Below are positions 7,674 to 28,412 of a DNA stretch of 28,705 nt, piece by piece. A model generated the notes under the pieces. It searched no databases. It was not told where the DNA came from and saw only the letters and a program-made list of their open reading frames with translations. The position numbers and the translations under genes are program-made. Within the stretch, counting starts at the first letter, position 1. Each line of letters begins with the position of its first letter. The DNA is from a virus: positions 1 through 28,705 of the IMG/VR virus record IMGVR_UViG_3300021962_000490. The stretch is one strand, 5' to 3'.

Positions 7674-8906
7674 ATGACAACAAAGATTACGCCGTCAGTT
7701 CTAGAAAATACGGATGTTGTAGCAGCCACACACGGTACTGGTGCCGCAATACCAGTTATAGTTGTTGATCCACAAGGTAGAATTACTGGTGTCACCAATA
7801 CTACTATTGGTATAGCTACATCTCAAATTACTAGTGGCACACTGGCTGATGCGAGATTGCCTGATACTGGTGCTGCAGCAGGTTCATATGGAAGCGCAAG
7901 TCGTGTTCCAAGAATTATAGTGGATGCAAAAGGCAGAGCAACTGGAGTGGCCAATATTGACATACAAATTGCAACTTCTCAAATCACTGGTTATCCAACA
8001 TTTGCGGCTTCAGCAACCACAGACACAACAAATGCTTCTAATATTAGTTCAGGCACATTACCTGATGCTAGATTAAGTAATGCTGGTACTAACACCGGTT
8101 CATTTGGTTCAGCATCAGCAGTTCCTGCAATTACCGTTGATGCAAAAGGTAGAGTTACGGCTGTAACTGCAACAAATATTGCAATTGGTGCTGGTGCAGT
8201 TTCTGGTTTAGCATCTTCTGCAACCTCAGACACAACAAATGCTGGTAATATCAGTTCAGGTACATTACCGGATGCTAGATTAAGTAATGCTGGTACTAGC
8301 ACTGGTACATTTGGATCAGCATCAGTAGTTCCAAGAATTGCGGTAGATGCAAAAGGTAGGGTTACATCTGTAACTGCAACAAATATTGGAATTGCTGCCG
8401 GTTCAGTTTCTGGTTTAGCAACTGTTGCAACATCTGGAGCATACGGAGATTTGAGTGGAAGGCCCGCCATCCCCGCCATCTACTCACCACCCCAAGGTAT
8501 TGATACTAGTTCAAATCCTCAATTTAATTCATTAGGTATTGGTACTGCAGCCACTGGTACCGGGGGTGAAATTCGTGCAACTAATAACATTACTGCATAT
8601 TATTCTGATGACAGATTGAAAACTAAACTTGGTGACATTGAAAATGCACTAGATAAAATTGAACAATTAAGTGGTTTCTACTATGAAGAAAATGAATTAG
8701 CAGAATCATTAGGGTATACAAAACATCGTCAAATTGGTATATCTGCACAACAGGTTCAAAAACAATTACCGGACTGTGGAGTTGTTGTGCCTGCACCAAT
8801 TGATGAGAAATACTTAACAGTACGTTACGAAAAGTTAATTCCATTATTAATTGAAGGTATTAAAGAATTACGTGCAGAAGTAAAAGAATTGAAAAATAAT
8901 ATTTAA
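7674..8906 (+). CDS. Tail fibre/spike with C-terminal peptidase S74 self-cleaving chaperone, 410 aa
   Basis: The N-terminal two thirds consist of four related beta segments. Three carry GTLxDARL motifs at residues 55, 127 and 196 (spacing 72 and 69), each followed by a VDAKGRxT motif. A linker with YGDLSGRPAIP precedes the last 100 residues, which match the peptidase S74 (endosialidase-type intramolecular chaperone) family: SDDRLK at 311-316, an ISAQQVQKQLP motif, then YEKLIPLLIEGIKEL and a terminal coiled coil. In this family the domain trimerises the fibre and then cuts itself off just before the Ser of S-D-x-R-L-K, using a Ser/Lys pair; here these are Ser311 and Lys316. The mature fibre would therefore be about 310 residues. 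Ribosome site AAAGG at 7661-7665. Confidence 0.9.
   Translation: MTTKITPSVLENTDVVAATHGTGAAIPVIVVDPQGRITGVTNTTIGIATSQITSGTLADARLPDTGAAAGSYGSASRVPRIIVDAKGRATGVANIDIQIATSQITGYPTFAASATTDTTNASNISSGTLPDARLSNAGTNTGSFGSASAVPAITVDAKGRVTAVTATNIAIGAGAVSGLASSATSDTTNAGNISSGTLPDARLSNAGTSTGTFGSASVVPRIAVDAKGRVTSVTATNIGIAAGSVSGLATVATSGAYGDLSGRPAIPAIYSPPQGIDTSSNPQFNSLGIGTAATGTGGEIRATNNITAYYSDDRLKTKLGDIENALDKIEQLSGFYYEENELAESLGYTKHRQIGISAQQVQKQLPDCGVVVPAPIDEKYLTVRYEKLIPLLIEGIKELRAEVKELKNNI
7836..8400 (+). repeat. About 70-codon tandem repeats in the S74 fibre body
   Basis: GTLxDARL starts recur at 7836, 8052 and 8259 (216 and 207 bp apart). The second and third copies are nearly identical over about 50 bp around CTAGATTAAGTAATGCTGG. 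Each unit carries the VDAKGRxTxVTxxNI motif common in phage fibres. Confidence 0.8.
8604..8903 (+). other. Peptidase S74 intramolecular chaperone domain (coding segment)
   Basis: The segment codes for 100 residues starting at the Ser of SDDRLK. Predicted cleavage is between codons 8601-8603 (Tyr) and 8604-8606 (Ser). Catalytic Ser is coded at 8604-8606 and Lys at 8619-8621. Both are intact, so self-cleavage should be functional. The basis is the known S74 family motif. Confidence 0.88.
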
Positions 8907-14201: not shown

Positions 14202-16880
14202 ATGCAATTCACCTACATTGGCAGTCAAAGTAAAAAGGATGTAAGACTAGCCAGTTCAATTGCCAATGGTGCATTTGTAACTGCTAACTCAGCATCGTTG
14301 TTTGCCAATGGTGCTTTTAGTGCAGCCAACTCCGCATCATTATATGCGAATGCGGCATTCGCAGCGGCCAATTCTGGATCAAGTTCTAGTTTTGCATTTG
14401 ACCAAGCCAATGCAGCCTTTGGTGCGGCCAACTCTGCAAGTCTATATGCCAATGGTGCTTTCAGTCAAGCCAACTTGGCATATGATGCAATTATCACAAG
14501 CAGTAATACTGCTTCATTGTATTATTTGACAAGAACATTTACTGGTGATGGTAGTACAACCGCATTTACAGTAACAGCTAATACTACATCAAATAGTATT
14601 CTTGTTTTTGATAATGGTATTACACAAAATCCAATAGTTGATTATAGTGTAACTGGTACAACATTAACTTTCACAACTGCACCAAGTACCGGATCGGTGA
14701 TACAAGTTCGTGAATTGTTAAGTAATGTACCAGTAGTTACAGATAATTCAAACTCAGCATTCGATAGAGCCAATGCGGCATTTGCTGCAGCGAATTCTGG
14801 TTCTAGTGCCAGCTTTGCTTTTGCTCAGGCAAATGCTGCTTTTATCCAGGCAAATGCTGTATTCAGCCAATCTAATAACCAAGTATGGCCACAAGCTAAT
14901 GCCGCATTTAGTGTTGCAAACTCTGCTTCCAATTTTGCCAACGGAGCTTTCACCAAAGCCAATTCTGCAAATGTTCTGGCACAATCAGCATTCGATGCGG
15001 CAAATTCAGCATCCTCATTTGCTAACGGTGCATTTACAGCCGCCAACCTAAAATTCAATTCAACTGGTGGTACAATTTCTGGTGATGTTTCTATCACAGG
15101 CAACCTTTCTGTAACAGGAAACACATTTAGTACTAGTGCCACACAGATTGTTGCTAATGATACTTTGTTTATTATGGGTACCGGAAATTATTCTGGTGAT
15201 GTACTGGACATTGGATTTGCTGCACACTATAATAACGGAACCAATGCACACACTGGTCTAATCAGAGATGCTAGTACCAAAGAATGGCAATTGTTTGAAG
15301 AATACACTCCAGAAGTTGGTTCAAACAACAACATCATTATCACTGATGGTTCATTTAAACTTGCAACATTAAATGCAAATCTAAAATCGACAACGATTAC
15401 AATCAAGGGTATAGATTTATTACCATATGTTAATAATGCTTTTGATAAGGCTAACTCCAGTGCATCGTTTGCTAACGGTGCTTTTGTTCAAGCCAATTCA
15501 AATTATACAAGTGCTGTCACCAAGTTGGCAGTTACAACTCCTGGAATGTACTACAGTATTGACCAATATTCAGGAAATAATCCAACAATTTATATTCGTG
15601 CTGGTGAAACAATAGCATTTGATCTTGATGTTTCTGGTCATCCATTTATGATTCGTGTGTCATCAGGAGGATCCAATTACAACACAGGTTTAATTCATGT
15701 AGATACAGACGGAACATTAACCACAGGATCTTCAGCTCAAGGAAAAATTACTGGAACATTATATTGGAAAGTTCCTTACGATATCGTTGGTTCAACTTAT
15801 GTATATCAATGTTCTGTTCATTCTGGAATGGTTGGAAATATTGTAATTGACCAACCAACAGCAATTGCATTTACTCAAGCAAACAATGCTTATGATAAAG
15901 CAAATTCGGCTGGTTCATTTGCTAATGGTGCTTTTGATGCAGCCAACTCTGCGGCATCTTTTGCTAATGCATCATTTATAACAGCTAATTCATCTTACAA
16001 TTCACAAAATATAACGGCTGGGTTTGCTAATGGTGCTTTTGCTCATGCTAATGCTGCATTTAATCAAGCAAACACAGGTGGTTCAGATGCATGGGTAAGA
16101 ACTCAGGCTAATAATGCTTATGATACCGCAAATTCAGGAGCCATTTTTGCCAACGGTGCATTCACTGCCGCAAACACCGCAGATTCAAAAGCCACAAGTT
16201 CTGGTTTATTTGCCAATGCAGCTTTTGATAGAGCCAATGCTGCGTTTATTGCTGCAAATACTGGAGGTGGCGGACCAGGAACACCAGTATCAATTTATTC
16301 TGATAGGTTTACTGCAAACGGTGCAACAACAACATTCACTTTAAGTACATCACCAACAAATGAAAATTATATAATTGCTGTTGTAGATGGTATCACACAA
16401 TTCAAAGACACCTATGCTGTTTCTGGTAATGTAGTAACATTCGATAGTACATTTGAAAATGGTGCAAATGTAGAAGTGACCACAATAACAGGCGGTGGTG
16501 CTATAGACCCTTATGCAGCAAATACTGCAAACTTGGCATACGCACAAGCTAATGCTGCATTTAATCAAGCAAACACAGGTGGTTCAGATGCATGGGTAAG
16601 AACTCAGGCTAATAATGCTTATGACAAAGCCAACTCCGGTGCAACCTTTGCTAATGGTGCATTCTTAACAGCCAATTCTGGTGCAGTTTTTGCAAATGCA
16701 GCATTCATTACAGCCAATGCGGCCTTTGCTGCAGCAAATGCAGGTGGCGGTGCGGATACATATGCTAGAACAACCGCAAATGCTGCATTCATTCAGGCCA
16801 ATGCTGCATTCACACAAGCAAATACAGGTGGTACATCATTATCAAAGGCGATTGCAATGTCAATTGTTTTCGGATTCTAA
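14202..16880 (+). CDS. Mosaic tail fibre, 892 aa, with heptad repeats and an internal cupredoxin-like domain
   Basis: Starts 1 nt after the previous stop. Runs of the heptad A-N-x-A-F/S-x-x (about 16-95, 180-285, 405-435, 555-690, 765-880) are predicted trimeric coiled-coil shafts. Between them lie discrete domains: a beta domain at about 112-175 (FTGDGSTTAFTV, ILVFDNGITQ, DYSVTGTTLTF); the DIGFAAHYNNG block at about 290-400 shared with the 635-aa fibre; a cupredoxin-like domain at about 436-550; and a second beta domain at about 697-763 (FTANGATTTFTL). It ends in a short hydrophobic strand (IAMSIVFGF). An exact 77-bp direct repeat lies inside (16047 and 16548). Fibre identity is strong; the copper site is discussed separately. 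The following gene is a small paralog of the preceding one. Confidence 0.85.
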   Translation: MQFTYIGSQSKKDVRLASSIANGAFVTANSASLFANGAFSAANSASLYANAAFAAANSGSSSSFAFDQANAAFGAANSASLYANGAFSQANLAYDAIITSSNTASLYYLTRTFTGDGSTTAFTVTANTTSNSILVFDNGITQNPIVDYSVTGTTLTFTTAPSTGSVIQVRELLSNVPVVTDNSNSAFDRANAAFAAANSGSSASFAFAQANAAFIQANAVFSQSNNQVWPQANAAFSVANSASNFANGAFTKANSANVLAQSAFDAANSASSFANGAFTAANLKFNSTGGTISGDVSITGNLSVTGNTFSTSATQIVANDTLFIMGTGNYSGDVLDIGFAAHYNNGTNAHTGLIRDASTKEWQLFEEYTPEVGSNNNIIITDGSFKLATLNANLKSTTITIKGIDLLPYVNNAFDKANSSASFANGAFVQANSNYTSAVTKLAVTTPGMYYSIDQYSGNNPTIYIRAGETIAFDLDVSGHPFMIRVSSGGSNYNTGLIHVDTDGTLTTGSSAQGKITGTLYWKVPYDIVGSTYVYQCSVHSGMVGNIVIDQPTAIAFTQANNAYDKANSAGSFANGAFDAANSAASFANASFITANSSYNSQNITAGFANGAFAHANAAFNQANTGGSDAWVRTQANNAYDTANSGAIFANGAFTAANTADSKATSSGLFANAAFDRANAAFIAANTGGGGPGTPVSIYSDRFTANGATTTFTLSTSPTNENYIIAVVDGITQFKDTYAVSGNVVTFDSTFENGANVEVTTITGGGAIDPYAANTANLAYAQANAAFNQANTGGSDAWVRTQANNAYDKANSGATFANGAFLTANSGAVFANAAFITANAAFAAANAGGGADTYARTTANAAFIQANAAFTQANTGGTSLSKAIAMSIVFGF
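15520..15850 (+). other. Cupredoxin-like (type 1 copper) domain inside the 892-aa fibre
   Basis: Residues about 440-550 read as a Greek-key beta domain: TIYIRAGETIAFDLDVSGHP, then a long middle, TLYWKVPYDIVGSTYVYQC, and SVHSGMVGNIVI. Plastocyanin-like proteins bind copper with one His in the first half and a Cys-x2-His-xn-Met loop near the end. Here His480, Cys537, His540 and Met543 fit, with a short C-x2-H-x2-M loop as in amicyanin. No other Cys is near. Similar GHPF and YYCxxHSGM sequences occur, as I recall, in virion proteins of marine T4-like phages. Copper binding is inferred. Confidence 0.65.
16047..16123 (+). repeat. 77-bp exact direct repeat, copy 1
   Basis: Identical, base for base, to 16548-16624. 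The offset is 501 bp (167 codons), so recombination between copies would keep the reading frame. It codes for a heptad segment with AFNQANTGGSDAWVRTQANN. Confidence 0.95.
16548..16624 (+). repeat. 77-bp exact direct repeat, copy 2
   Basis: Second copy of the sequence at 16047-16123. The interval between the copies holds a heptad run and the second beta domain of the 892-aa fibre. Confidence 0.95.
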
Positions 16881-16889
16881 GGATTTAAA

Positions 16890-17249
16890 ATGGCAAACCC
16901 AAACATAGCAGCACTAACAACAATTAATGGAAATACACAAGTACAATCGGTGACAACATCGGCGACTTCGATTGCAAACAATCCTTCATCCAGTGGTAAA
17001 ATATTAAAAATTAATTCGTTGATTATTTCCAATATTCATGCAACTAGTGCGGCAGATATAACAGTTGATTTGTTTAGAAGTGCGACTGCATACAAATTGG
17101 TTAGCACCATTTCGGTTGCAGCAGATACTTCCTTCACAGCCATTGACAAAACACTTTCCATTTATTTGTTGGAAGGTGATGAATTGAGATTAACGGCCAG
17201 TACCAATAGTATATTACAAGCAGTGTGTTCGTTTGAGGAGATCAGTTAA
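16890..17249 (+). CDS. Small beta-type virion protein, 119 aa (paralog B)
   Basis: ATG preceded by AAGGA at 16879-16883, which overlaps the upstream stop. Paralog of the 108-aa protein at 13874 and, by its start, related to the one beginning at 28626. Key segments are SVTTSATSIANNPSSSGKIL, INSLIISNI, AADITVDLFRS, AYKLVSTISV and LEGDELRLTAS, ending SFEEIS. I recall near-identical patterns in T4-like cyanophage proteins annotated as virion structural. All-beta, no signal or membrane segment, one Cys near the end. Its stop codon overlaps the ATG of the 2320-aa protein by 1 nt, so the two are translationally coupled. It probably sits on or between fibres. Confidence 0.82.
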   Translation: MANPNIAALTTINGNTQVQSVTTSATSIANNPSSSGKILKINSLIISNIHATSAADITVDLFRSATAYKLVSTISVAADTSFTAIDKTLSIYLLEGDELRLTASTNSILQAVCSFEEIS

Positions 17250-20200
17250 TGTTTAATGCCGGTGTTAGAGGCAAAAGAGCAAAAGATTCAACAGGTCTTA
17301 TTACAGTTGGTGAACATTTTAACCAACAAACTTTCCTGGTACCTACTGTTACCCGTTTTGCGGTAACTGATGGCTCTTATGTTGACACAAATGATACCGC
17401 AGCCGACACAGTAGGTGGTCAAACAATCGTTCTGTATGGGTCAGGTTTTGCACCAGGTGCAACCGTTTTGGTTGGGTCTACTACGATAGGCGTAGTAACA
17501 TTCCTGGATTCTGGCCGTCTGGCATTCAGTTCTCCTGCATTAGGTTCTGGTAGTTATACCATTTTTGTTACCAATGCAAATGGTGGTACTGGTATTCTTG
17601 TACCAGGTTTGGTATATTCTGGTGTACCAACATTCACCACATCAGCCGGTTCATTGGGTTCTGTATATGAAACAACTGCAATCAACACAACTGTTGTTGC
17701 AACCGGCGATGCACCAATTACATATGCATTATCTTCTGGTTCTTTGCCTTCAGGTTCAACACTGAGTTCTGGTGGTACAATTTCAGGCACTGCACCTGTG
17801 GATGGTTCAAGTACAACATATTCGTTTACTATACAAGCAACTGATGCGGATAATCAAGATTCTGTTCGTTCATTTTCTCTTACAATCAATACAGATGTTG
17901 TTTCATTTTCATCACCAGCAAACAACACAACAACCACTGCAACACAAAATACTGCAATATCAAATGTGACAGTTGTTGCAACTTCTGCGGCCGGTTATGG
18001 CGTACTGTATACCTCCAGTGGATTGCCAACTGGTCTATCAATGAATACCTCTACTGGTATTATTTCTGGTACACCAACTATTGTTGCAAGTAACACATCA
18101 ATCATAACTGCGACTGCAAATACAACAAATAGAAGTGCAACAAGATATTTGAACTGGACAATAAATCTTCCTGGTGACTTGTTCTGGAAGTATGCATCAT
18201 TATTAATGAGTGCAAGCACAGTACCAAACGGAAATACATTCAATACAGATGCGAGTACATTTAATAATGAAATTGTGGTTAGTGCAGATACAAAGCCAAA
18301 TGAGTTTCATCCTTTTAAAGAAGGATATTACAGCAATTTATTTGATGGTACTGGGGATTATTTGGCCATATTGACCAGTTCCGCTTTCAACATTGCTACC
18401 AATAGTTTTACAGTAGAAGCATGGATCAATACCAGTTCAGCAACACAACAATCAATTTTTAACATTTCAGATACTGGCAGTTCAGGATATGGAGCAGTCC
18501 GTGTTCAAGTATTGGCCAATCAAACCGTACAATGGTTAATGGGTCCAGGCGGTTCTTGGGGTGTGGCAGTAACCGCAGGATCAATTGTTTTGGGAGCATG
18601 GAACCACATTGCAATTACTCGCAACGGATCATCTGTATATTTCTTTATTAATGGATTGCAAGTAGGTACAACACAAACTTACGCAACTTCTTTAACAACT
18701 GGTGGCACAACATACATTGGTTTTAATAGCGGCACATCATTTGCATTTAACGGTTATATTTCCAATCTTAGATTTGTAAATGGCACCGCATTATATACCG
18801 CAAATACAACTCCAGCGACTGCACCACTAACATATGTGGCCAACACCAGTTTGATAACATGTCAATCTAATAGACTGATTGACAATTCAAATAATAACTT
18901 TACAATCGTAAAGGGTGGTGATACAAGAGTTAATCCATTTAGCCCATTCAACGGCACACCAACAACAATCACTGTGCCTGATGCAAACAATTACAGTGTT
19001 TATTTTGATGGTACTGGTGATTATTTGAGTGGACCTTCAAACTATCCTTTAATTACAACCGGTCCATTTACAATTGAATTTTGGGTATATCAGCCAACCC
19101 TTGCAGCAAAAACCTTGATTTTTAATGCACATTGGGATATTGGCCAGAATGGTGGATTTAGGGTTAATTTGTCAGCATCTGGTGCTGTTGTTTTTGATGC
19201 ATCAACTGGAACATATAATACATTTCCAAATGTATTTACCAGCACATCAACTATATCTGCAAGCACTTGGTCGCACATTGCAATTGTTAGAAATTCTAGC
19301 AATAGTATTTCTTGTTACATAAATGGCGTACTTGCACGAACTCCTGTAACATATGCTTCTAGTTTAAGTTTATCTTCGGATGGTAATATTGGCCAACTGA
19401 GAATTGGAGCTGGTATATATGATGGTGGAGCTGCCGATTTATTTACTGGATACATCAGTAATCTTAGAATATTAAATACTGCTTTATATTCTGGCAATTT
19501 CACACCATCAAACTCACCATTGGGATTTACACAATCATCATCAGCAAATACTGCCGCACTAACAGCACTACCAACAAATGGAGCTAGTGTTTATTTTGAT
19601 GGTACTGGAGATTATTTGACCTTTACTAATACCACTGCACAAGGTGTTAATTTTGGAACAGATGATTTTACAGTTGAATTATGGTATTACATGACAAATA
19701 ATACTACGAATTCAACATATCATACTTTTATTAGACAAGATACTACTACCGGTGCATTTGATTTTGGATACAGACCTAGCGCCACACAATTAGTATTGGC
19801 AAGAAACGGTACCGGTGAGGTTACCGCTTCAGTTACTCTGGCGTTGAATACTTGGAATCATATTGCAGTTTCTCGTTCAGGTACAAATTTAAGATTTTTT
19901 GTAAATGGTACTCAAGTTGGTTCTACTGCTACAAATTCATATAATTTTTCAGTTACTGGTGGAACTGTTCGTATAGGTAGTAATAATTTTAATGGTACAT
20001 ACACTGCGTATGGCTACATATCTAACCTACGCAGTGTTCGTTCAGCAGTCTATACTTCTACATTCACTCCAAGTACCGTACCACTAACAGCAATTGCCAA
20101 CACCAGTTTGCTGACTTGCCAATCATATTCGTCATCCAATAATAGAGTAATAATTGATAATTCTACAAATGCATACACTATTTCATCAGTTGGTGACTCA

Positions 20201-23200
20201 ATTGGAAAAACATTAAGTCCATTTGCCAATACACCATCAATTTTGATGGCTCAAGCAAATACAATTATTGATAGTAGTAATAATGGAATAACATTCACAG
20301 TAAGTGGTGATACAAGACCAGCAATAAACGGGCCTTTTGCAAACACATCAACAGTTACTTTAGTTGGTAATGAAGGCTCAGCATACTTTGATGGTGCTGG
20401 GGATTGTTTAGGAGCAGAATCATCAAATGGTATTTTACCTGCGGATTTTACTGTAGAAATGTGGGTGTACTTAACATCATCTATAGCAAACCAACCGCTC
20501 GTTGCGTTTGGCACTGAAGTATCTGGTAGATTTGCTTTGTTGACAAATGCATCGGGACAGTTGAAATATGGTATTTATGGAGATGCAACAGAATATATAT
20601 ATACAACAATTGCTATGGTACTCAATACTTGGACACATGTGGCCTTTTCGAGAACTGGCACTAACATGTATGCATTTATAAATGGCGCTTCAGCAGGCGC
20701 AGTAAGGACATTATCTGGTTCTAGAGGTAATGGTACTAGAATTAGTGTGGGGGCATCAGCAGCTCGAGATTCATCTATGACTGGATATCTGTCCAATGTA
20801 AGAGTTGTTAATGGTACTGGATTATACACCAGTGCGTTTGTTCCTTCTTTTGCACCACTAATGCCTGTGGCCAATACAGTATTGTTGACAGCACAAACAA
20901 ATTTATCTTCGAATACAAAAGTAATAGTTGATGAAAGTAATTTTGCTGGTGTAGTTTCAGGATTTGGAAATGCAAACTTAGGCACATTTAGTCCATCTGG
21001 CAGTTCATGGAGTGTATATTTTGATGGTACTGGAGATTATTTGAGTGGATCATCTTCACGATTAAATTTTGGTGCCAATGATTTCACTGTTGAATTTTGG
21101 ATGTGGCCAGTAAACATATCCACAAACTCTCAAATAATTTTTCAAGCAGGATCAGGAAATCTTGCAATACTATTAATGACTAATGGTTTGATAGAACCTG
21201 GACAATATCAAACAGCAGGTATTAGTCAAAGTACAGCAGGAGCAATAGTAGCAGGAGCATGGCACCATGTTGTTGTAACAAGAACAGGCACCGCATTTAG
21301 AACTATTATTGATGGTGTGTTGCGTGGTTATGGAACAAGAAGTTTTTCACCAAATAACAGTTCATATACAATTGGTGGTGCAGCTTCTGGTACTGCTTAT
21401 ACCGGTTATATTTCCAATTTTAGAGTGTTTGCAAATAATATACCAACACTATACAGCACATCATCAACAACACTTGCAACAACAATATTCACGACACCAA
21501 CAGATCCATTTGTTGTTGATGCAAACACAGTATTACTAACTTGTAACTCAAATCAATTTGTTGATTACTCTGCGGCCAATAATGTGATTACAAGAACTGG
21601 TGATACTGCTGTATCCAAATTCAGCCCATTCAGTTCAGTTACAGTAACACCTGCAAGTTATAGTGGTTATTTTGATGGTACTGGGGATTATTTAACAACT
21701 TCTGCGGCATTTAACTCCGCAATGGTTGGTCTTGCAGGATCAAAATGGACAATTGAGGCTTGGGTAAACATTAGAACAATAACCGCACTCAACTCATATT
21801 ATGTTCCAGTAATTGGAACTTATGCGGCCGTGGCAGCAAACGGCCGTTGGTGGTTTGGTTATGATGGTAATGCTGCATCAGGTACCAATGCAAGAGGGCA
21901 TTTTACTTATACTACAGGCACAGGAACTCAAGTAGATTTAATTGCTACCGCAACATTTAGCTTTAATGTTTGGACTCATATTGCAGTTACAATTGATGCA
22001 ACTACATCTTCATCAAGTACCATTACAATATACACCAATGGTGTGGGTGAAACATTCACTGCACAAAATATGTCAACACAAACTTCCAATTATAGTGCGC
22101 CAAATATTGGCGGAAACTTGTATTTAAATGCACACATTGGTTACATTTCAAATCTTCGTGTAGTTAAAGGCACCACAGTCTATACCGAAACATTTACTCC
22201 ACCAACTACACCTCTCACAGCAATTGCCAACACCAGTTTGTTAACTTGCCAGTCAACAACATTTATTGATAATTCAAACAATGCATTTGCAATCACAGTC
22301 AACGGTGACGCAAAGCCTGTGATACAAAATCCATTTACTGATACTGTTGGTGTGACAACAAATTATTCTGCAAACACTTTTGGTAACAGTGTGTATTTTG
22401 ATGGTACGACAGATTACTTGACGATACCATATAATCCTAGTTTTAATATACCCGCAAGTACACCTTTTACTTGTGAAGCATGGGTTTATCAACCTTCTTC
22501 CACAGAATTCCATGTTTTAAATAGAAATTGGGCGTATGGTTCTTCTGGATCAACTTATGGTTTTGGTATTGGTAACGATATGAAACCTTTTTGGTCTATT
22601 GGTGGCACTGGTGTATCTACATATAATATGATAAATGCCGGCACAGCTGGTAAACCTGGCCAATGGAACCATTTTGCTTGGTCAAGAGATACTAGTAATG
22701 TTTGTAGAGTGTTTACAAATGGTGTTGAGACAGTATCGGTGACCAGAACAGATTCACAGGCAATGTCTACCACATCAGGTAGTGCGTTTGTTGGTGTTAC
22801 ATCTAACTTAGCTTCACCTTATGCAAGCGGTTATCTTTCAAATTTAAGATTTATTGTTGGTTCATGTTTATACAATAGAAACTTTGTACCTTCCAATCAG
22901 CCATTACCAGTAACATCAAATACCTCAATATTACTTGCGAGCACAGTAGGTCCATCAACAGCAGATGCAACAAGAAACCACAATATAGAAACTTTTGGTA
23001 CCGCAAGACATGTGGCCAACAATTCACCATACTACGATACATACAGTGGTTACTTTGATGGTACTGGAGACTATTTGACTTTTGGTGCAAACCAAGAAAA
23101 CTTAGGCCTTGGCACAGGAGACTTCACATTAGAATTCTGGTTCAACGCAGCAACAATACCATCAACAGAAATTGATATTTTTGAATCACAAACAAACAAC

Positions 23201-24211
23201 TCACTCAGAATACTCAAAAGAGCTTCAAGTTCTGGATTGTCATTCGATCCATATGGAGGTTCTGCCACTTTGATTATGGCAGATGCAAGTATTACAACAA
23301 ATACATGGCACCATGTTGCAATCTCAAGAACTTCTGGAACTACAAGTGCATATTATGATGGTACCAGAGTTGTTAACCAAGCAGATTCAACAAATTATGC
23401 AACACCAACAGTAAACTATGGTGTTGGTGGTCGTGCATCTGGTGCAAACTATTTTAACGGTTACATTTCAAATATGAGACTGGTCAAAGGTACTGGTTTA
23501 TATTCAGGCACAACGATTACGGTTCCTACAGGTCCTTTGACAGCAGTAACAAATACACAGTTGTTAATTTGCAATACAAATAGGTTTATTGATAGTTCAA
23601 CCAATGCATTTACCATTACAAAAGCTGGTGATGCAAAGATAACCGCATTCGAACCTTTTGTCGGCAGCAATATCTCAAGATTCAATTCTGTGTATTTTGG
23701 TACCAAAACAGATTATCTTGCTGTAAGACAACAAGCAAATCTTAAAGTTTTCCCTGGTGACTTTACATTCGAATGCTGGGTGTATCCAACAGACACTACA
23801 CTTAGTACTACTTGGGGTATTTGGGATAGTAGACAATCCAATGCAACAGCAGCAGCAATGACTTTTTCTTTAGGTCCTCTGGCATCACCAGTAAGTGGTT
23901 CATGGAGACTGGCATATTTTAACGGAACTACTTATTATGGTACAGGAATAGTTTTATCGAATCAATGGTCACATGTGGCTTGGGTTCGTAGTGGAACAAC
24001 AATGACTTTCTATGTAAATGGTGTTGCAGGTGGAACAGCAACAATTTCTGGCACACAAACCGCTACCGTAACAACCAATCCTATTTACATTGGCGCAAAA
24101 GATAACGGCTTGGCCAATTATGGAACAGTTGGTTATATTGCAGATTTCAGAATCACAAACGGTTATGCAAGAACTATAACTGTACCGACAGCCCCATACG
24201 ATATCAAATAA
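17249..24211 (+). CDS. Giant adhesin-like virion protein, 2320 aa: IPT, two Ig-like and nine LamG lectin-type domains
   Basis: ATG overlaps the previous stop, with GAGGAG at 17235-17240. A short N-terminal anchor (1-35) is followed by an IPT/TIG-like domain (about 37-125: GGQTIVLYGSGFAPGATVLV), two Ig-like putative domains (about 127-215 and 219-308: GLPTGLSMNTSTGIISGTPT), then nine LamG/concanavalin-type domains whose YFDGTGDYL motifs begin at residues 364, 585, 782, 1046, 1257, 1474, 1716, 1935 and 2149. Each continues FTVEFW, a W-H-A-R strand, a NG turn, and GYISNLRxVxGTxLY, then LLTCQ and NSNNxFT. LamG domains commonly bind glycans. The fourth copy has GAGDCL and the ninth FGTKTDYL, departures from the motif. 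No self-chaperone or enzyme motif is seen. I infer a long multivalent glycan-binding fibre or side appendage. Confidence 0.85.
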   Translation: MFNAGVRGKRAKDSTGLITVGEHFNQQTFLVPTVTRFAVTDGSYVDTNDTAADTVGGQTIVLYGSGFAPGATVLVGSTTIGVVTFLDSGRLAFSSPALGSGSYTIFVTNANGGTGILVPGLVYSGVPTFTTSAGSLGSVYETTAINTTVVATGDAPITYALSSGSLPSGSTLSSGGTISGTAPVDGSSTTYSFTIQATDADNQDSVRSFSLTINTDVVSFSSPANNTTTTATQNTAISNVTVVATSAAGYGVLYTSSGLPTGLSMNTSTGIISGTPTIVASNTSIITATANTTNRSATRYLNWTINLPGDLFWKYASLLMSASTVPNGNTFNTDASTFNNEIVVSADTKPNEFHPFKEGYYSNLFDGTGDYLAILTSSAFNIATNSFTVEAWINTSSATQQSIFNISDTGSSGYGAVRVQVLANQTVQWLMGPGGSWGVAVTAGSIVLGAWNHIAITRNGSSVYFFINGLQVGTTQTYATSLTTGGTTYIGFNSGTSFAFNGYISNLRFVNGTALYTANTTPATAPLTYVANTSLITCQSNRLIDNSNNNFTIVKGGDTRVNPFSPFNGTPTTITVPDANNYSVYFDGTGDYLSGPSNYPLITTGPFTIEFWVYQPTLAAKTLIFNAHWDIGQNGGFRVNLSASGAVVFDASTGTYNTFPNVFTSTSTISASTWSHIAIVRNSSNSISCYINGVLARTPVTYASSLSLSSDGNIGQLRIGAGIYDGGAADLFTGYISNLRILNTALYSGNFTPSNSPLGFTQSSSANTAALTALPTNGASVYFDGTGDYLTFTNTTAQGVNFGTDDFTVELWYYMTNNTTNSTYHTFIRQDTTTGAFDFGYRPSATQLVLARNGTGEVTASVTLALNTWNHIAVSRSGTNLRFFVNGTQVGSTATNSYNFSVTGGTVRIGSNNFNGTYTAYGYISNLRSVRSAVYTSTFTPSTVPLTAIANTSLLTCQSYSSSNNRVIIDNSTNAYTISSVGDSIGKTLSPFANTPSILMAQANTIIDSSNNGITFTVSGDTRPAINGPFANTSTVTLVGNEGSAYFDGAGDCLGAESSNGILPADFTVEMWVYLTSSIANQPLVAFGTEVSGRFALLTNASGQLKYGIYGDATEYIYTTIAMVLNTWTHVAFSRTGTNMYAFINGASAGAVRTLSGSRGNGTRISVGASAARDSSMTGYLSNVRVVNGTGLYTSAFVPSFAPLMPVANTVLLTAQTNLSSNTKVIVDESNFAGVVSGFGNANLGTFSPSGSSWSVYFDGTGDYLSGSSSRLNFGANDFTVEFWMWPVNISTNSQIIFQAGSGNLAILLMTNGLIEPGQYQTAGISQSTAGAIVAGAWHHVVVTRTGTAFRTIIDGVLRGYGTRSFSPNNSSYTIGGAASGTAYTGYISNFRVFANNIPTLYSTSSTTLATTIFTTPTDPFVVDANTVLLTCNSNQFVDYSAANNVITRTGDTAVSKFSPFSSVTVTPASYSGYFDGTGDYLTTSAAFNSAMVGLAGSKWTIEAWVNIRTITALNSYYVPVIGTYAAVAANGRWWFGYDGNAASGTNARGHFTYTTGTGTQVDLIATATFSFNVWTHIAVTIDATTSSSSTITIYTNGVGETFTAQNMSTQTSNYSAPNIGGNLYLNAHIGYISNLRVVKGTTVYTETFTPPTTPLTAIANTSLLTCQSTTFIDNSNNAFAITVNGDAKPVIQNPFTDTVGVTTNYSANTFGNSVYFDGTTDYLTIPYNPSFNIPASTPFTCEAWVYQPSSTEFHVLNRNWAYGSSGSTYGFGIGNDMKPFWSIGGTGVSTYNMINAGTAGKPGQWNHFAWSRDTSNVCRVFTNGVETVSVTRTDSQAMSTTSGSAFVGVTSNLASPYASGYLSNLRFIVGSCLYNRNFVPSNQPLPVTSNTSILLASTVGPSTADATRNHNIETFGTARHVANNSPYYDTYSGYFDGTGDYLTFGANQENLGLGTGDFTLEFWFNAATIPSTEIDIFESQTNNSLRILKRASSSGLSFDPYGGSATLIMADASITTNTWHHVAISRTSGTTSAYYDGTRVVNQADSTNYATPTVNYGVGGRASGANYFNGYISNMRLVKGTGLYSGTTITVPTGPLTAVTNTQLLICNTNRFIDSSTNAFTITKAGDAKITAFEPFVGSNISRFNSVYFGTKTDYLAVRQQANLKVFPGDFTFECWVYPTDTTLSTTWGIWDSRQSNATAAAMTFSLGPLASPVSGSWRLAYFNGTTYYGTGIVLSNQWSHVAWVRSGTTMTFYVNGVAGGTATISGTQTATVTTNPIYIGAKDNGLANYGTVGYIADFRITNGYARTITVPTAPYDIK
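18335..24200 (+). repeat. Nine tandem LamG-coding repeats (about 590-790 bp each)
   Basis: Motif codons for L/Y-F-D-G begin at 18338, 19001, 19592, 20384, 21017, 21668, 22394, 23051 and 23693 (the ninth reads YFGTK). Spacing is 197-264 codons. Short stretches such as CAATTGCCAACACCAGTTTG recur exactly between units (about 20092 and 22222), but most of the units have diverged, so the array is old with local homogenisation. Confidence 0.85.
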
Positions 24212-24234: not shown

Positions 24235-25818
24235 ATGTCAACTCAAGTACCTCCATCAAGATTAGATTCAACTAAAGATTTTTCATCTTTGGTTCCTTCT
24301 GCATTTGCACAGGCTAATGCCGCTTATGCACAGGCAAACACTGGAGGTGCCGATTCTTGGGCTAGAAATACAGCCAATGCAGGATTTATTACTGCAAATT
24401 CGGCATCATTATTTGCCAATGGAGCTTTTGATAAAGCCAATGCGGCATACAATGCAGCCAATAATGCATCAGATACATGGGTAAGAACACAAGCAAACAA
24501 TTCTTATGATACTGCAAACTCTGCTGGTCTATATGCTAACGGAGCATTTACGGCAGCCAATACTGCCGATGAAAAATCAACCAGTGCAGGATTATACTCA
24601 AACGGAGCATTTAATTCTTCCAACTCGGCCAGTCTGTATGCCAATGGTGCATTTGGTGCAGCCAATTCGGCAAGTTTGTATGCAAATGGAGCATTTGCAG
24701 CGGCCAATTCTGGTTCAAGTGCAGGTTTTGCTTTTAGTCAGGCCAATGCTGCTTTTGCACAGGCTAATGCTGCGTTTGCTCAAGCAAATACTGGTGGTTC
24801 TAGTGCAGATTCGTGGGCTAGAGATCAAGCCAATTCTTCTTTTGACAAAGCCAACTCAGCCAATACTTTAGCACAATCTGGATTTGATAAAGCTAATAGT
24901 GCTAATACTCTAGCACAGTCAGGGTTTAATGTATCCAATGCGGCATTCATTCAAGCCAATGCTGTTTTCACTCAATCTAACAATCAGGTTTGGCCTCAGG
25001 CAAATGCTGCTTTTAGTGCAGCCAACTCCGCATCATTATATGCCAATGCAGCCTTTGCTGCAGCAAATGCAGGTGGCGGTGGTGGTTCTGATACATGGGC
25101 CAGAGAACAGGCCAATGCAGCATTCATAACAGCCAACTCAGCATCAACTTACGCAAATACACCTTATATCAGTAGTGGAACAAGTAATGTGAGTATGACC
25201 ACATCTGGTGGAAATATTTACATGAATGTTGGTGGCGTAAATATGGTCAACATTTCCACCACATGGGCAAATGTAACAGGTAATATTGCTGCAACACAAG
25301 GTGTTTATTCTGCTGTAGTAAACACAACATCAATATATGCAACAAGCAATATAATTACTGCAAATATTAGAACAACTGGTAGTGCTGGTAACATATCTGG
25401 TGCAAATTATGTTACCTCAAACTTCTTTATTGGTGAAGGCTCAGCACTAACAAACTTGAAACCAAACACTCATATGACAATTGCATTGAGTGATGAAACA
25501 ACTTCAATCACAACAGGTGTGGCCAAAATTACATTCAGAGCACCTTTTGCCATGACTTTGACTCAAATTCCAAGAGCATCATTGTCTGTTGTAAGTTCAT
25601 CTGGTAATCCAACAGTTGATATTGATAAAAATGGTGTATCAATTTTCAGTACACAGTTATCTATAGATGCCAACGAAAAAACAAGCACTACTGCTGCAAC
25701 ACCAGCTGTTCTTTCTACAACTACATTTGCTGATGATGATGAAATAACTATGGATGTTACTACGGCAGGAACAGGTGCAAAAGGTCTAAAAGTTACATTA
25801 TATTATAGGAGAACATAA
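24235..25818 (+). CDS. Tail fibre with long Ala-Asn heptad shaft, 527 aa
   Basis: First gene behind the late promoter at 24207. The N-terminus (STQVPPSRLDSTKDFSSLV) is paralogous to that of the 65-aa protein at 28419. Residues about 21-320 are an almost unbroken heptad A-N-x-A-F/S-x-x, a predicted trimeric coiled coil, with the peptide QSNNQVWPQANAAFS also found in the 892-aa fibre. A beta region follows (about 310-410, with GNISGANYVTSNFFIGEGSA). The C-terminal domain (about 415-527: VAKITFRAPFAMTLT, STQLSIDANEKTSTTAATPA, LKVTLYYRR) is one I recall at the ends of other phage tail proteins. It overlaps the next gene by 1 nt, so fibre and glycine-rich protein are probably made together, as adhesin and fibre are in T-even phages. 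Confidence 0.85.
   Translation: MSTQVPPSRLDSTKDFSSLVPSAFAQANAAYAQANTGGADSWARNTANAGFITANSASLFANGAFDKANAAYNAANNASDTWVRTQANNSYDTANSAGLYANGAFTAANTADEKSTSAGLYSNGAFNSSNSASLYANGAFGAANSASLYANGAFAAANSGSSAGFAFSQANAAFAQANAAFAQANTGGSSADSWARDQANSSFDKANSANTLAQSGFDKANSANTLAQSGFNVSNAAFIQANAVFTQSNNQVWPQANAAFSAANSASLYANAAFAAANAGGGGGSDTWAREQANAAFITANSASTYANTPYISSGTSNVSMTTSGGNIYMNVGGVNMVNISTTWANVTGNIAATQGVYSAVVNTTSIYATSNIITANIRTTGSAGNISGANYVTSNFFIGEGSALTNLKPNTHMTIALSDETTSITTGVAKITFRAPFAMTLTQIPRASLSVVSSSGNPTVDIDKNGVSIFSTQLSIDANEKTSTTAATPAVLSTTTFADDDEITMDVTTAGTGAKGLKVTLYYRRT
24295..25164 (+). repeat. Heptad (21-bp) repeat run coding for A-N-x-A-F/S-x-x
   Basis: Codons for Ala-Asn recur at 7-residue steps, often as a 14-residue double unit (ANSASLYANGAFAA). 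The same unit appears in four other genes of the window. The segment near 25045-25080 (CTTTGCTGCAGCAAATGCAG) is almost identical to one near 16724-16750 in the 892-aa fibre. Confidence 0.85.
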
Positions 25819-26705
25819 TGTCTGGGTTTTTACTTAACCCTTATAGTTATGCAGTTGCAGCTTTAAGTGGACCTCTAACTGTAGATATACTAGTTCTTTC
25901 TGGTGGTGCAGGCGGCGGTGGTCGAAGCGGCGGTGGTGGAGGTGCAGGTGGTTATACCTCATACACAAGTCAAACTCTCACTAGAGGTGTTACATATACA
26001 GTAACTGTTGGTGCTGGTGGTTCTTCTGGTGGTGGCGCATCAAACCTTAGAGGTGGCTCAGGAAATCCAACAAGTATATCTGGTTCAGGCTTTACAACAC
26101 TATCAACATCAGGTGGCGGTGGCGGCGGTTCAGGTACAGCTGCTACAACTGGCAACTCAGGTAATAGTGGTGGTTCAGGTGGCGGCGGCGGCAAAGCATC
26201 CACTGGTGCCAGCGGTATTGCTGGCGAAGGTAATAACGGTGGTAATGGTGCAGCTGGTACAAACAGAGGCGGTGGTGGCGGTGGTGGCGCTGGAGCTGTT
26301 GGCGGCACTGCTGCAACGACACCAACTCCTTCACCTGCTGGCGCAGGCGGTAATGGATCAGCCTGGTTAAACAGCACCACTTACGGTGGTGGTGGCGGTG
26401 GCGGCGGTTATTTCCCTGGCGGTAACTCACGAGCAGCAGGTGGTGGCTCTGGTGGTGGCGGCGCTGGCGGCGAAACACTAAACACAGGCAATGGCGGCGA
26501 CGGCGGCAACAACCTAGGTGGCGGTGGTGGTGGTGGAGGCGGTGGTCCTACAGCTGGTGGTGCCGGTGGTAAAGGTATTTTAATTGTAAGATTTATAAAC
26601 ACTGAACCTGATGCTCAAGGATACACTGGTTCAAACGTGGTATTTGCAGACGTTGGTGGTTATAAGTATTACACATTCAATGAATCAGGAACACTCTTAG
26701 CTTAA
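25818..26705 (+). CDS. Glycine-rich adhesin-like protein, 295 aa (copy 1)
   Basis: ATG overlaps the previous stop (TAATG). After a short N-terminal part (SGFLLNPYSYAVAAL) comes VDILVLSGGAGGGG, the usual opening of the phage and bacterial glycine-rich (Gly_rich_2-type) domain, then repeated GGGGGG tracts separated by short variable loops, and a closing KGILIVRF strand. The last 30 residues (NVVFADVGGYKYYTFNESGT) recur in the next gene. In T-even and S16-like phages the fibre-tip adhesin gp38 has a core of poly-Gly helices and carries the receptor-binding loops. A comparable role is inferred here from composition and from the coupling to the fibre; there is no evidence of strict homology. Codons are GC-richer than the neighbours because of Gly. 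Confidence 0.8.
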   Translation: MSGFLLNPYSYAVAALSGPLTVDILVLSGGAGGGGRSGGGGGAGGYTSYTSQTLTRGVTYTVTVGAGGSSGGGASNLRGGSGNPTSISGSGFTTLSTSGGGGGGSGTAATTGNSGNSGGSGGGGGKASTGASGIAGEGNNGGNGAAGTNRGGGGGGGAGAVGGTAATTPTPSPAGAGGNGSAWLNSTTYGGGGGGGGYFPGGNSRAAGGGSGGGGAGGETLNTGNGGDGGNNLGGGGGGGGGGPTAGGAGGKGILIVRFINTEPDAQGYTGSNVVFADVGGYKYYTFNESGTLLA

Positions 26706-26720
26706 CATAGGAATTACAAA

Positions 26721-27653
26721 GTGGTTTTTAGAATAGGTCCAGGAATAACAATAGAAGGCGGTATAACATATACAAGACCAACTGTTGATTTGTATGAAGT
26801 AGAATATCTTATCGTTGCTGGCGGTGGCGGCGGCGGCAGTCGTAGAGGTGGTGGTGGCGGTGCTGGAGGATATGTAACAGGAAACACAATATCACAACTA
26901 GGGCACACATTCACCGTAACAGTAGGCACAGGAGGAACGGGTACAGCTTCAGGAAGCTCAGCCACAGCAGGAAGTGGCAATGGTAGTTCATTAGCTGGTT
27001 CAAACATATCAACAGTCACGGCCACCGGCGGTGGCGGCGGCGGTACAAGTGGTTCACCAAGTGGTGGCACAGCTGGTGCCGGTGGCGGTTCTGGTGGTGG
27101 CGCAAGTGGATCATTTGCTCCATCGGGTAGTGGAGGAGGCGCCGGAACTTCTGGCCAAGGTAATAATGGCGGCGGCGGATCAGGCATATCTAACGGGCTA
27201 GGTGCTGGCGGTGGTGGCGCAGCGAGTGCAGGTATAAACAGTGGTAGTGATACTTATAATAATGGTTATGGTGGTGATGGTAAATATTGGATTGATGGAA
27301 TTAAATATGCCGGTGGTGGTGGCGGTGGCGCTGTTTCAGGTTCCGCTTATGTTGGTGAAGGTGGCGGCGGCACCGGCGGTTTTGGTGATGGTGGTGGGCT
27401 TGGTGGTTTTTTCGGCGGTGGTGGACAATATGTTGAAGCAAGCGCTGGCGGAGAAAATAGAGGTGGAGGCGGCGGTGGTGGCGGTGGCGGTTCACCAGTA
27501 GGAGCTGGCGCCAATGGTGGTAAAGGTGTAGTAATTATTGCTTGGCCAGATTCATATCCGCCAGCAACAAGTACCACAGGAAGCCCAATATACACTTTGA
27601 TTGGAGAATATAGATACTATACTTTCACTTCTTCAGGAACTATGACAATTTAA
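26721..27653 (+). CDS. Glycine-rich adhesin-like protein, 310 aa (copy 2), GTG start
   Basis: The start is GTG at 26721, supported by AGGAA at 26709-26713 and by the 15-nt gap to the previous stop; no ATG in frame lies near. The order matches copy 1: VEYLIVAGGGGGGSRRGGGG, AGGYVTGN, FTVTVGTGG, several poly-Gly tracts with differing loops, KGVVIIAW, and a final YRYYTFTSSGTMTI. The two copies agree in framework and differ in the loops, as expected for proteins that recognise different surface targets or for a duplicated gene under diversifying selection. The gene is followed by AGAGGA, the ribosome site of the next gene. Adhesin function is inferred; the GTG start is unusual for this window. Confidence 0.8.
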   Translation: MVFRIGPGITIEGGITYTRPTVDLYEVEYLIVAGGGGGGSRRGGGGGAGGYVTGNTISQLGHTFTVTVGTGGTGTASGSSATAGSGNGSSLAGSNISTVTATGGGGGGTSGSPSGGTAGAGGGSGGGASGSFAPSGSGGGAGTSGQGNNGGGGSGISNGLGAGGGGAASAGINSGSDTYNNGYGGDGKYWIDGIKYAGGGGGGAVSGSAYVGEGGGGTGGFGDGGGLGGFFGGGGQYVEASAGGENRGGGGGGGGGGSPVGAGANGGKGVVIIAWPDSYPPATSTTGSPIYTLIGEYRYYTFTSSGTMTI

Positions 27654-27663
27654 AGAGGAAATA

Positions 27664-28026
27664 ATGAGTCACTTTGCACAATTAGATGAAAATAATATTG
27701 TAACTAGAGTAATAGCCATAGAACAAGACCTGATTGACACTGGTCTTTGGGGAGAACCGAGTAGTTTTGTTCAAACCAGTTATAACACACTTGCTGGAGA
27801 ACACAGATTAGGTGGTACACCCCTAAGAAAGAATTTTGCAGGCATAGGATACACATACGATCCCGTTCGTGATGCTTTTATACCACCAAAGCCATTTCAA
27901 AGTTGGTCATTAAATGAGAGCACCTGCCAATGGGACAGCCCTGTGCCTTATCCTTCAGATATTTCTAAGGATTATGAGTGGGATGAAGCCTCACTTTCTT
28001 GGATAGAAGTATCATTCGACCAATAA
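27664..28026 (+). CDS. Conserved phage structural-region protein, 120 aa (copy 1)
   Basis: ATG with AGAGGA at 27654-27659. The pattern HFAQLDENNIVTRVIAIEQ, QTSYNT, GGTPLRKNFAGIGYTYD, RDAFIPPKPFQSW, LNESTCQWDSPVPYP and a final YEWDEASLSWIEV marks a family I recall in many T4-like cyanophages and marine phages, where it is hypothetical or structural and often multicopy. It is followed by a close paralog with about two thirds of residues identical by eye. Trp- and Pro-rich, about 120 residues, soluble, with no known catalytic motif. Because it lies among fibre and adhesin genes it is probably a virion or fibre-assembly protein. What it binds is unknown. Confidence 0.85.
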   Translation: MSHFAQLDENNIVTRVIAIEQDLIDTGLWGEPSSFVQTSYNTLAGEHRLGGTPLRKNFAGIGYTYDPVRDAFIPPKPFQSWSLNESTCQWDSPVPYPSDISKDYEWDEASLSWIEVSFDQ

Positions 28027-28033
28027 AATAAAG

Positions 28034-28041
28034 AATAAATA
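28034..28041 (+). promoter_or_regulatory. T4-type late promoter box AATAAATA
   Basis: Lies 8 nt after the 120-aa gene and 17 nt before the ATG at 28059. It shares the 11-nt string ATAAATACCTC with the promoter at 9003. The predicted leader is about 12 nt, starting AAGAGGA, which is the ribosome site. Confidence 0.78.
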
Positions 28042-28058
28042 CCTCTAAGAGGATAAAA

Positions 28059-28412
28059 ATGGCACACTTTGCACAGATAGATGAAAACAATATTGTAACA
28101 AGAGTTCTTGTCATTGAACAAGATGTAGTTGATACTGGTATGTTTGGTCCAAAAGAATCTTGGATACAAACAAGTTATAACACTATTATGGGTGAACATA
28201 GATTGGGTGGCACACCTTTGCGTAAAAACTATGCGGGTATTGGATACACCTACGATAAAGATCGTGACGCATTCATACCACCTAAACCATTTCCAAGTTG
28301 GGTACTAAATGAAACAACTTGTTATTGGGATGCACCTGTTGCAAGGCTCGAAGATGAAAAATCATATGAATGGGATGAAGCAACCTTGGCTTGGGTTGAA
28401 TACACACCTTAA
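28059..28412 (+). CDS. Conserved phage structural-region protein, 117 aa (copy 2)
   Basis: Tandem paralog of the preceding gene, with its own late promoter and AGAGGA site. The N-terminus HFAQIDENNIVTRVLVIEQD, the GEHRLGGTPLRKNYAGIGYT core and RDAFIPPKPFPSW are nearly unchanged. The divergent parts are residues 27-36 (GMFGPKESWI against GLWGEPSSFV) and the C-terminal 25 residues. The DNA of the two copies differs at many silent sites, so the duplication is not recent or the copy was acquired separately. Having a separate promoter suggests different dosage or timing from copy 1. Function unknown, as for copy 1. Confidence 0.85.
   Translation: MAHFAQIDENNIVTRVLVIEQDVVDTGMFGPKESWIQTSYNTIMGEHRLGGTPLRKNYAGIGYTYDKDRDAFIPPKPFPSWVLNETTCYWDAPVARLEDEKSYEWDEATLAWVEYTP

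Follow-up and report, generated by a model that had tools for sequence, protein, structure and literature searches.

The closest known relative of the domain analysed here is the C-terminal domain of cyanophage gp9 (PHROG 677, 'baseplate wedge tail fiber protein connector', Kyanoviridae), which is homologous to it and carries the same four ligands. In gp9 the domain ends a protein of 400–500 aa, whereas in the fibre described below it lies in the middle of an 892-aa heptad-repeat protein. The two domains share about 30–43% identity in the best tblastn matches; outside the domain the fibre has no counterpart in those matches, and the whole-protein architecture of gp9 was not found in it. The predicted fold and the ligand order are also shared with amicyanin, plastocyanin and rusticyanin, and the C-x2-H-x2-M loop is of the same length as in amicyanin. 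These three proteins, however, are soluble electron carriers, whereas the fibre domain is displayed, has a long additional stretch separating the first His from the Cys, and is only 14–20% identical to its fold matches. Another phage-encoded cupredoxin is the cyanophage PetE plastocyanin, the product of an auxiliary metabolic gene (PMC3037559); petE is a standalone gene of 324–369 bases tied to host photosynthesis, while the present domain is part of a structural protein. As for metal-holding phage fibres, iron is borne by the HxH tail fibres of T4 (gp37) and of Alteromonas phage R22Y, for which a siderophore-receptor hypothesis has been put forward in marine phages (PMC11705849). The iron in these fibres sits on His pairs repeated along the fibre, in contrast to the one mixed His/Cys/His/Met cupredoxin site considered here. 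No description of a cupredoxin or plastocyanin-like domain in phage tails was found in the open-licence literature, in which absence is weak evidence; this agrees with the preliminary description of the locus, which knew of no functional account.

The DNA analysed, hereafter the window, comprises 28,705 nucleotides (IMG/VR record IMGVR_UViG_3300021962_000490, positions 1–28,705), and the source of the fibre is an uncultured T4-like aquatic phage. The features of the fibre gene, in coordinates of the window, are as follows.

14202..16880, + strand: tail fibre gene, 892 aa (ORF; tail-fibre PHROGs; heptad periodicity)
15414..15515, + strand: helical heptad-repeat segment immediately before the domain (AF2 helix 3–29 of the 219-residue model; Asn lag-7 autocorrelation 0.53)
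15516..15851, + strand: cupredoxin-like domain, residues about 439–550 (AF2 model, Foldseek, PDB profile matches, PHROG 677 profile positions 299–409)
15639..15641, + strand: His480, first ligand, in GHPF (sequence; invariant among relatives)
15810..15812, + strand: Cys537, ligand (sequence; invariant; only Cys of the fibre)
15819..15821, + strand: His540, ligand (sequence; invariant among relatives)
15828..15830, + strand: Met543, axial ligand (sequence; invariant among relatives)
15858..16067, + strand: heptad-repeat shaft following the domain, predicted as a single continuous helix (AF2 helix 149–218 of the 219-residue model; Asn lag-7 autocorrelation 0.62)

The ORF, its PHROG matches and its periodicity show a fibre in which Ala/Asn heptad-repeat shafts alternate with globular domains. 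The flanks of the cupredoxin-like domain consist of such Ala/Asn-rich repeats, with an Asn autocorrelation at lag 7 of 0.53–0.75 over five segments. A 219-residue AF2 model, which is a single-chain prediction and not one of a trimer, runs from a helix (3–29, of modest confidence with a pLDDT of about 55–74) through the domain into a single continuous helix (149–218), so that the domain plausibly forms a knob flanked by two shafts. Both the heptad periodicity and this predicted arrangement bear out the earlier proposal of a displayed domain between two coiled-coil shafts. Its position in the ORF is mid-fibre and not at the tip.

Several neighbouring genes deserve mention in their own right. Adjoining the fibre gene, positions 17249–24211 encode a very large putative adhesin of 2320 aa that contains nine lectin-like Laminin_G_3 domains, and positions 7674–8906 encode a fibre protein with a C-terminal Peptidase_S74 (endosialidase chaperone) domain. 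The ORF at 1–2208, open at the start of the window, resembles adsorption-associated tail proteins and VrlC-like proteins from T4-like Rhizobium and Agrobacterium phages at about 25% identity. At 25818–28412 there are two adjacent gene pairs, each pair matching one PHROG (2295 twice and 7759 twice), which suggests tandem duplications.

The four candidate ligands were read in the ORF where the preliminary description had placed them, with type 1 spacing and a C-x2-H-x2-M loop; His480 lies in SGHPFM, and Cys537, His540 and Met543 lie in YQCSVHSGM. The domain alone was modelled by AF2 as 130 residues from alignment A1 (34 sequences from the window and IMG/VR), giving a mean pLDDT of 88.7 and a pTM of 0.83. 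In this model, as assigned by DSSP, the first His (model residue 57, fibre residue 480) is found between strands 47–53 and 59–62, strand 109–114 ends at Cys114 (537), and His117 (540) and Met120 (543) belong to the loop preceding the last strand, 121–127. The predicted strand order is that of cupredoxins (Greek-key β-sandwich), and on this order His480 would lie at the pole of the domain that also bears the Cys/His/Met loop. A further histidine, His499 (15696–15698; GLIH/GLTH), is invariant in window-type domains and absent from those of the gp9 type; it could represent an additional contact or metal site.

Foldseek comparison with the PDB gave 42 matches at E ≤ 0.001, and all 50 matches listed were cupredoxin-fold proteins, among them rusticyanin, amicyanin, plastocyanin, pseudoazurin, copper nitrite reductases, laccases, purple cupredoxin and EfeO, although the query-normalised TM-scores to solved cupredoxins were moderate (0.40–0.52). 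A profile of 22 diverse relatives, searched against PDB sequences, found plastocyanin (4.9e-5) and amicyanin (8.1e-5); the HMMER alignment with amicyanin sets Pro against Pro and leaves the first His out of register, and the pairing of this His therefore rests on model topology. The Pfam family PF00127 (plastocyanin/azurin) gave no match over the window record, which is a sensitivity limit of that model, and the domain alone scored 15.2–15.6 bits against the curated cut-off of 21.2; the domain is thus not filed in that Pfam family. The structural comparison that had been proposed for this region therefore yielded a confident model with only cupredoxin-fold proteins among the matches listed, and on the predicted structure the domain is confirmed as cupredoxin-like with the His, Cys, His, Met type 1 ligand set in order.

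Because this ligand set is that of electron-transfer proteins, and because rusticyanin, amicyanin and plastocyanin are among the close structural matches, the copper might be supposed to pass electrons at the cell surface or to act there as a sensor of redox or copper state, for instance so as to time a change in the fibre. The genes of the window offer no evident redox partner, however, and a virion has no energetic need of electron transfer; such a redox use appears highly improbable.

The conservation of the ligands was followed in a scan of IMG/VR with the four ligand residues masked, in order to avoid selecting relatives for sharing them. Among the 51 different sequences recovered, the first His was present in all 51, and Cys, His and Met were present in all 50 that covered the loop. 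The ligand codons of these relatives vary synonymously (CAT/CAC, TGT/TGC), which indicates that conservation acts at the protein level. Invariance in this set extends beyond the ligands, 31 of 112 well-covered columns showing no variation; in a 22-sequence alignment that includes cyanophage domains, at 32–81% identity to the window domain, only nine columns remained invariant, four of which were the ligands. When masked scanning was repeated with a P-SSM2-type query, it yielded 18 full ligand sets and two degenerate copies, and five alignments that end before the loop belong to loci that all continue into an intact C-x2-H-x2-M. Free variation of the ligands among homologues, which would have spoken against the original assignment, is clearly ruled out by the masked scan. 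A chance occurrence of the motif was likewise considered and was rejected by the invariance of the ligands.

A wider search, with a profile whose ligand columns were blanked and which was run over all fetched loci, found all four ligands in 180 of 189 different domains; as some of these loci came from ligand-containing patterns, the masked scan and not this proportion is the free estimate. Of the nine exceptions, three (L011, L257 and L195) are truncated where a contig or an alignment stops, the L195 sequence itself continuing as far as its Met; two more (L094 and L187) contain only part of the domain, and the remaining four (L024 copy 2, L306 and the copies in L307 and L240) are degenerate, retaining one ligand at most. 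No full domain with two or three ligands was found among the 189, and this all-or-none loss is as expected of one metal site. The degenerate copies in L024, L306, L307 and L240 represent rare natural metal-free controls, and in L024 the ligand-free copy (ORF residues about 429–540) and an intact one form a tandem pair within a single fibre.

The distribution of cysteine points in the same direction. Each of the 73 different window-type fibre ORFs has exactly one Cys per domain, and outside the domain these ORFs hold 22 Cys in 35,922 residues, 55 of the ORFs having none there. That a single Cys should be invariant in proteins which otherwise avoid the residue is difficult to account for unless it serves as a metal ligand. 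An intrachain disulphide involving Cys537 was rejected, this being the sole Cys of the 892-aa fibre. One may still argue that the domain holds no metal and is a cupredoxin-derived β-sandwich adhesion domain that retains the four residues solely because folding or trimer contacts require them. The few phages with degenerate copies lend this some support, since the persistence of ligand-free copies shows that the fold can survive without metal. The reading is nevertheless very unlikely, given that the unpaired Cys is invariant where Cys is otherwise avoided, and that the four residues are kept or lost together and do not vary down to 32% identity. Judging from its ligand residues, the domain probably binds copper.

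The earlier expectation that similar sequences occur in phage virion proteins was borne out, the domain being found in structural proteins of aquatic phages. It matches PHROG 677 with E = 1e-26 at profile positions 299–409 of 412. A relative is present in 336 of 50,697 phage records, 329 of them named Synechococcus, Prochlorococcus or 'cyanophage', and most of these relatives are annotated 'baseplate wedge tail fiber connector', which is the name of gp9. The gp9 of S-SM1 carries the domain, and virion proteomics exists for this phage (PMC3037559). The domain also occurs in PSSM2_028, a collagen-like fibre encoded by P-SSM2, as well as in other structural proteins, some of them peptidase-like. 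The wedge protein gp123 of S-CREM2 (55 unique peptides, PMC10665884) was considered as virion evidence and discarded, as it lacks this domain; nor was the domain found in the neighbouring and long-fibre proteins among the six S-CREM2 proteins checked. In Syn33, the protein after gp9 (L081, 2116–3903) contains a divergent domain with HPM...YYYCKVHRYM, and by its sequence two neighbouring genes of this cyanophage may each encode a copper-type site. In S-CAM1 (L094, 757–3012), a protein annotated as proximal tail fibre joins a partial domain copy to a subtilisin-type-like peptidase.

Uncultured contigs are the source of the window-type fibres; of 21 contigs tested, 4 encode the T4-type major capsid protein gp23, and psbA was found on none of the tested contigs of window-type relatives, which may be fragments. 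The window-type alignment found no relative in the bacterial and archaeal genomes scanned. A scan with the P-SSM2-type query recovered 24 relatives from assemblies of bacteria and archaea (Flavobacteriaceae, Myxococcota, Bdellovibrionales and others). Some are small proteins of about 140–150 residues and others lie inside large proteins, and the complete cellular domains retain the ligands; most of these assemblies are MAGs, so that some relatives may be phage contamination. In a 61-row tree, which is poorly resolved (102 columns), the window type adjoins the gp9 domains, and the P-SSM2-type and cellular domains are mixed.

With regard to function, a cupredoxin domain may have been recruited into the fibre as a displayed copper-binding module. 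In the host cytoplasm free copper is very low and Cys is reduced. Since the fibre is made in this reducing, copper-poor compartment, copper would be acquired after assembly or lysis; the fibre would be made as an apo-protein with a free Cys and would then take up probably one ion per chain. The copper would tie the loop of the first His to the Cys-His-Met loop and so rigidify the exposed pole, which could then serve as a generic contact surface for the cell envelope or for adjacent parts of the fibre. The ligand pole is the most conserved part of the domain across phages of different hosts, which makes a generic contact likelier than a host-specific one; recognition of a host-specific component fits poorly with a site that is the least variable part of the domain. 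A copper-locked displayed surface is the most economical role, and a rigid surface-contact module of this kind is tentatively proposed as the likeliest use of the domain, with somewhat less than an even chance of being correct.

Cupredoxins hold copper tightly, and type 1 copper is buried. This general property weighs against a copper Trojan horse, in which a host surface protein for copper binding or uptake would recognise the fibre-bound copper as an attachment handle, and so do the mid-fibre position of the window domain and the fact that no host receptor is known. Such a mechanism would be in keeping with an invariant metal site displayed on a fibre, and it has an analogy in the iron-bearing HxH fibres and the siderophore-receptor hypothesis for marine phages (PMC11705849). 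By that analogy it may be entertained as an unlikely explanation, the redox use being less likely than it. A broader version, in which the fibres of T4-like aquatic phages load type 1 copper from the water after lysis and use it to capture a component of the host envelope, the virions being copper carriers as other phages are of iron, is distinctly unlikely.

Metal-bearing tail fibres and cupredoxins are already known; what seems to be new is a cupredoxin domain on a phage fibre. Should the site indeed bind copper, a common structural module of cyanophages and uncultured T4-like phages would be a blue-copper-type domain, one that seems undescribed although hundreds of public phage records contain it under a name taken from T4. 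Binding of copper would also provide a simple coloured assay for the domain and would make phage metal content and copper-dependent adsorption directly testable in cultured cyanophages, and the idea of iron in phage tails would then extend to copper.
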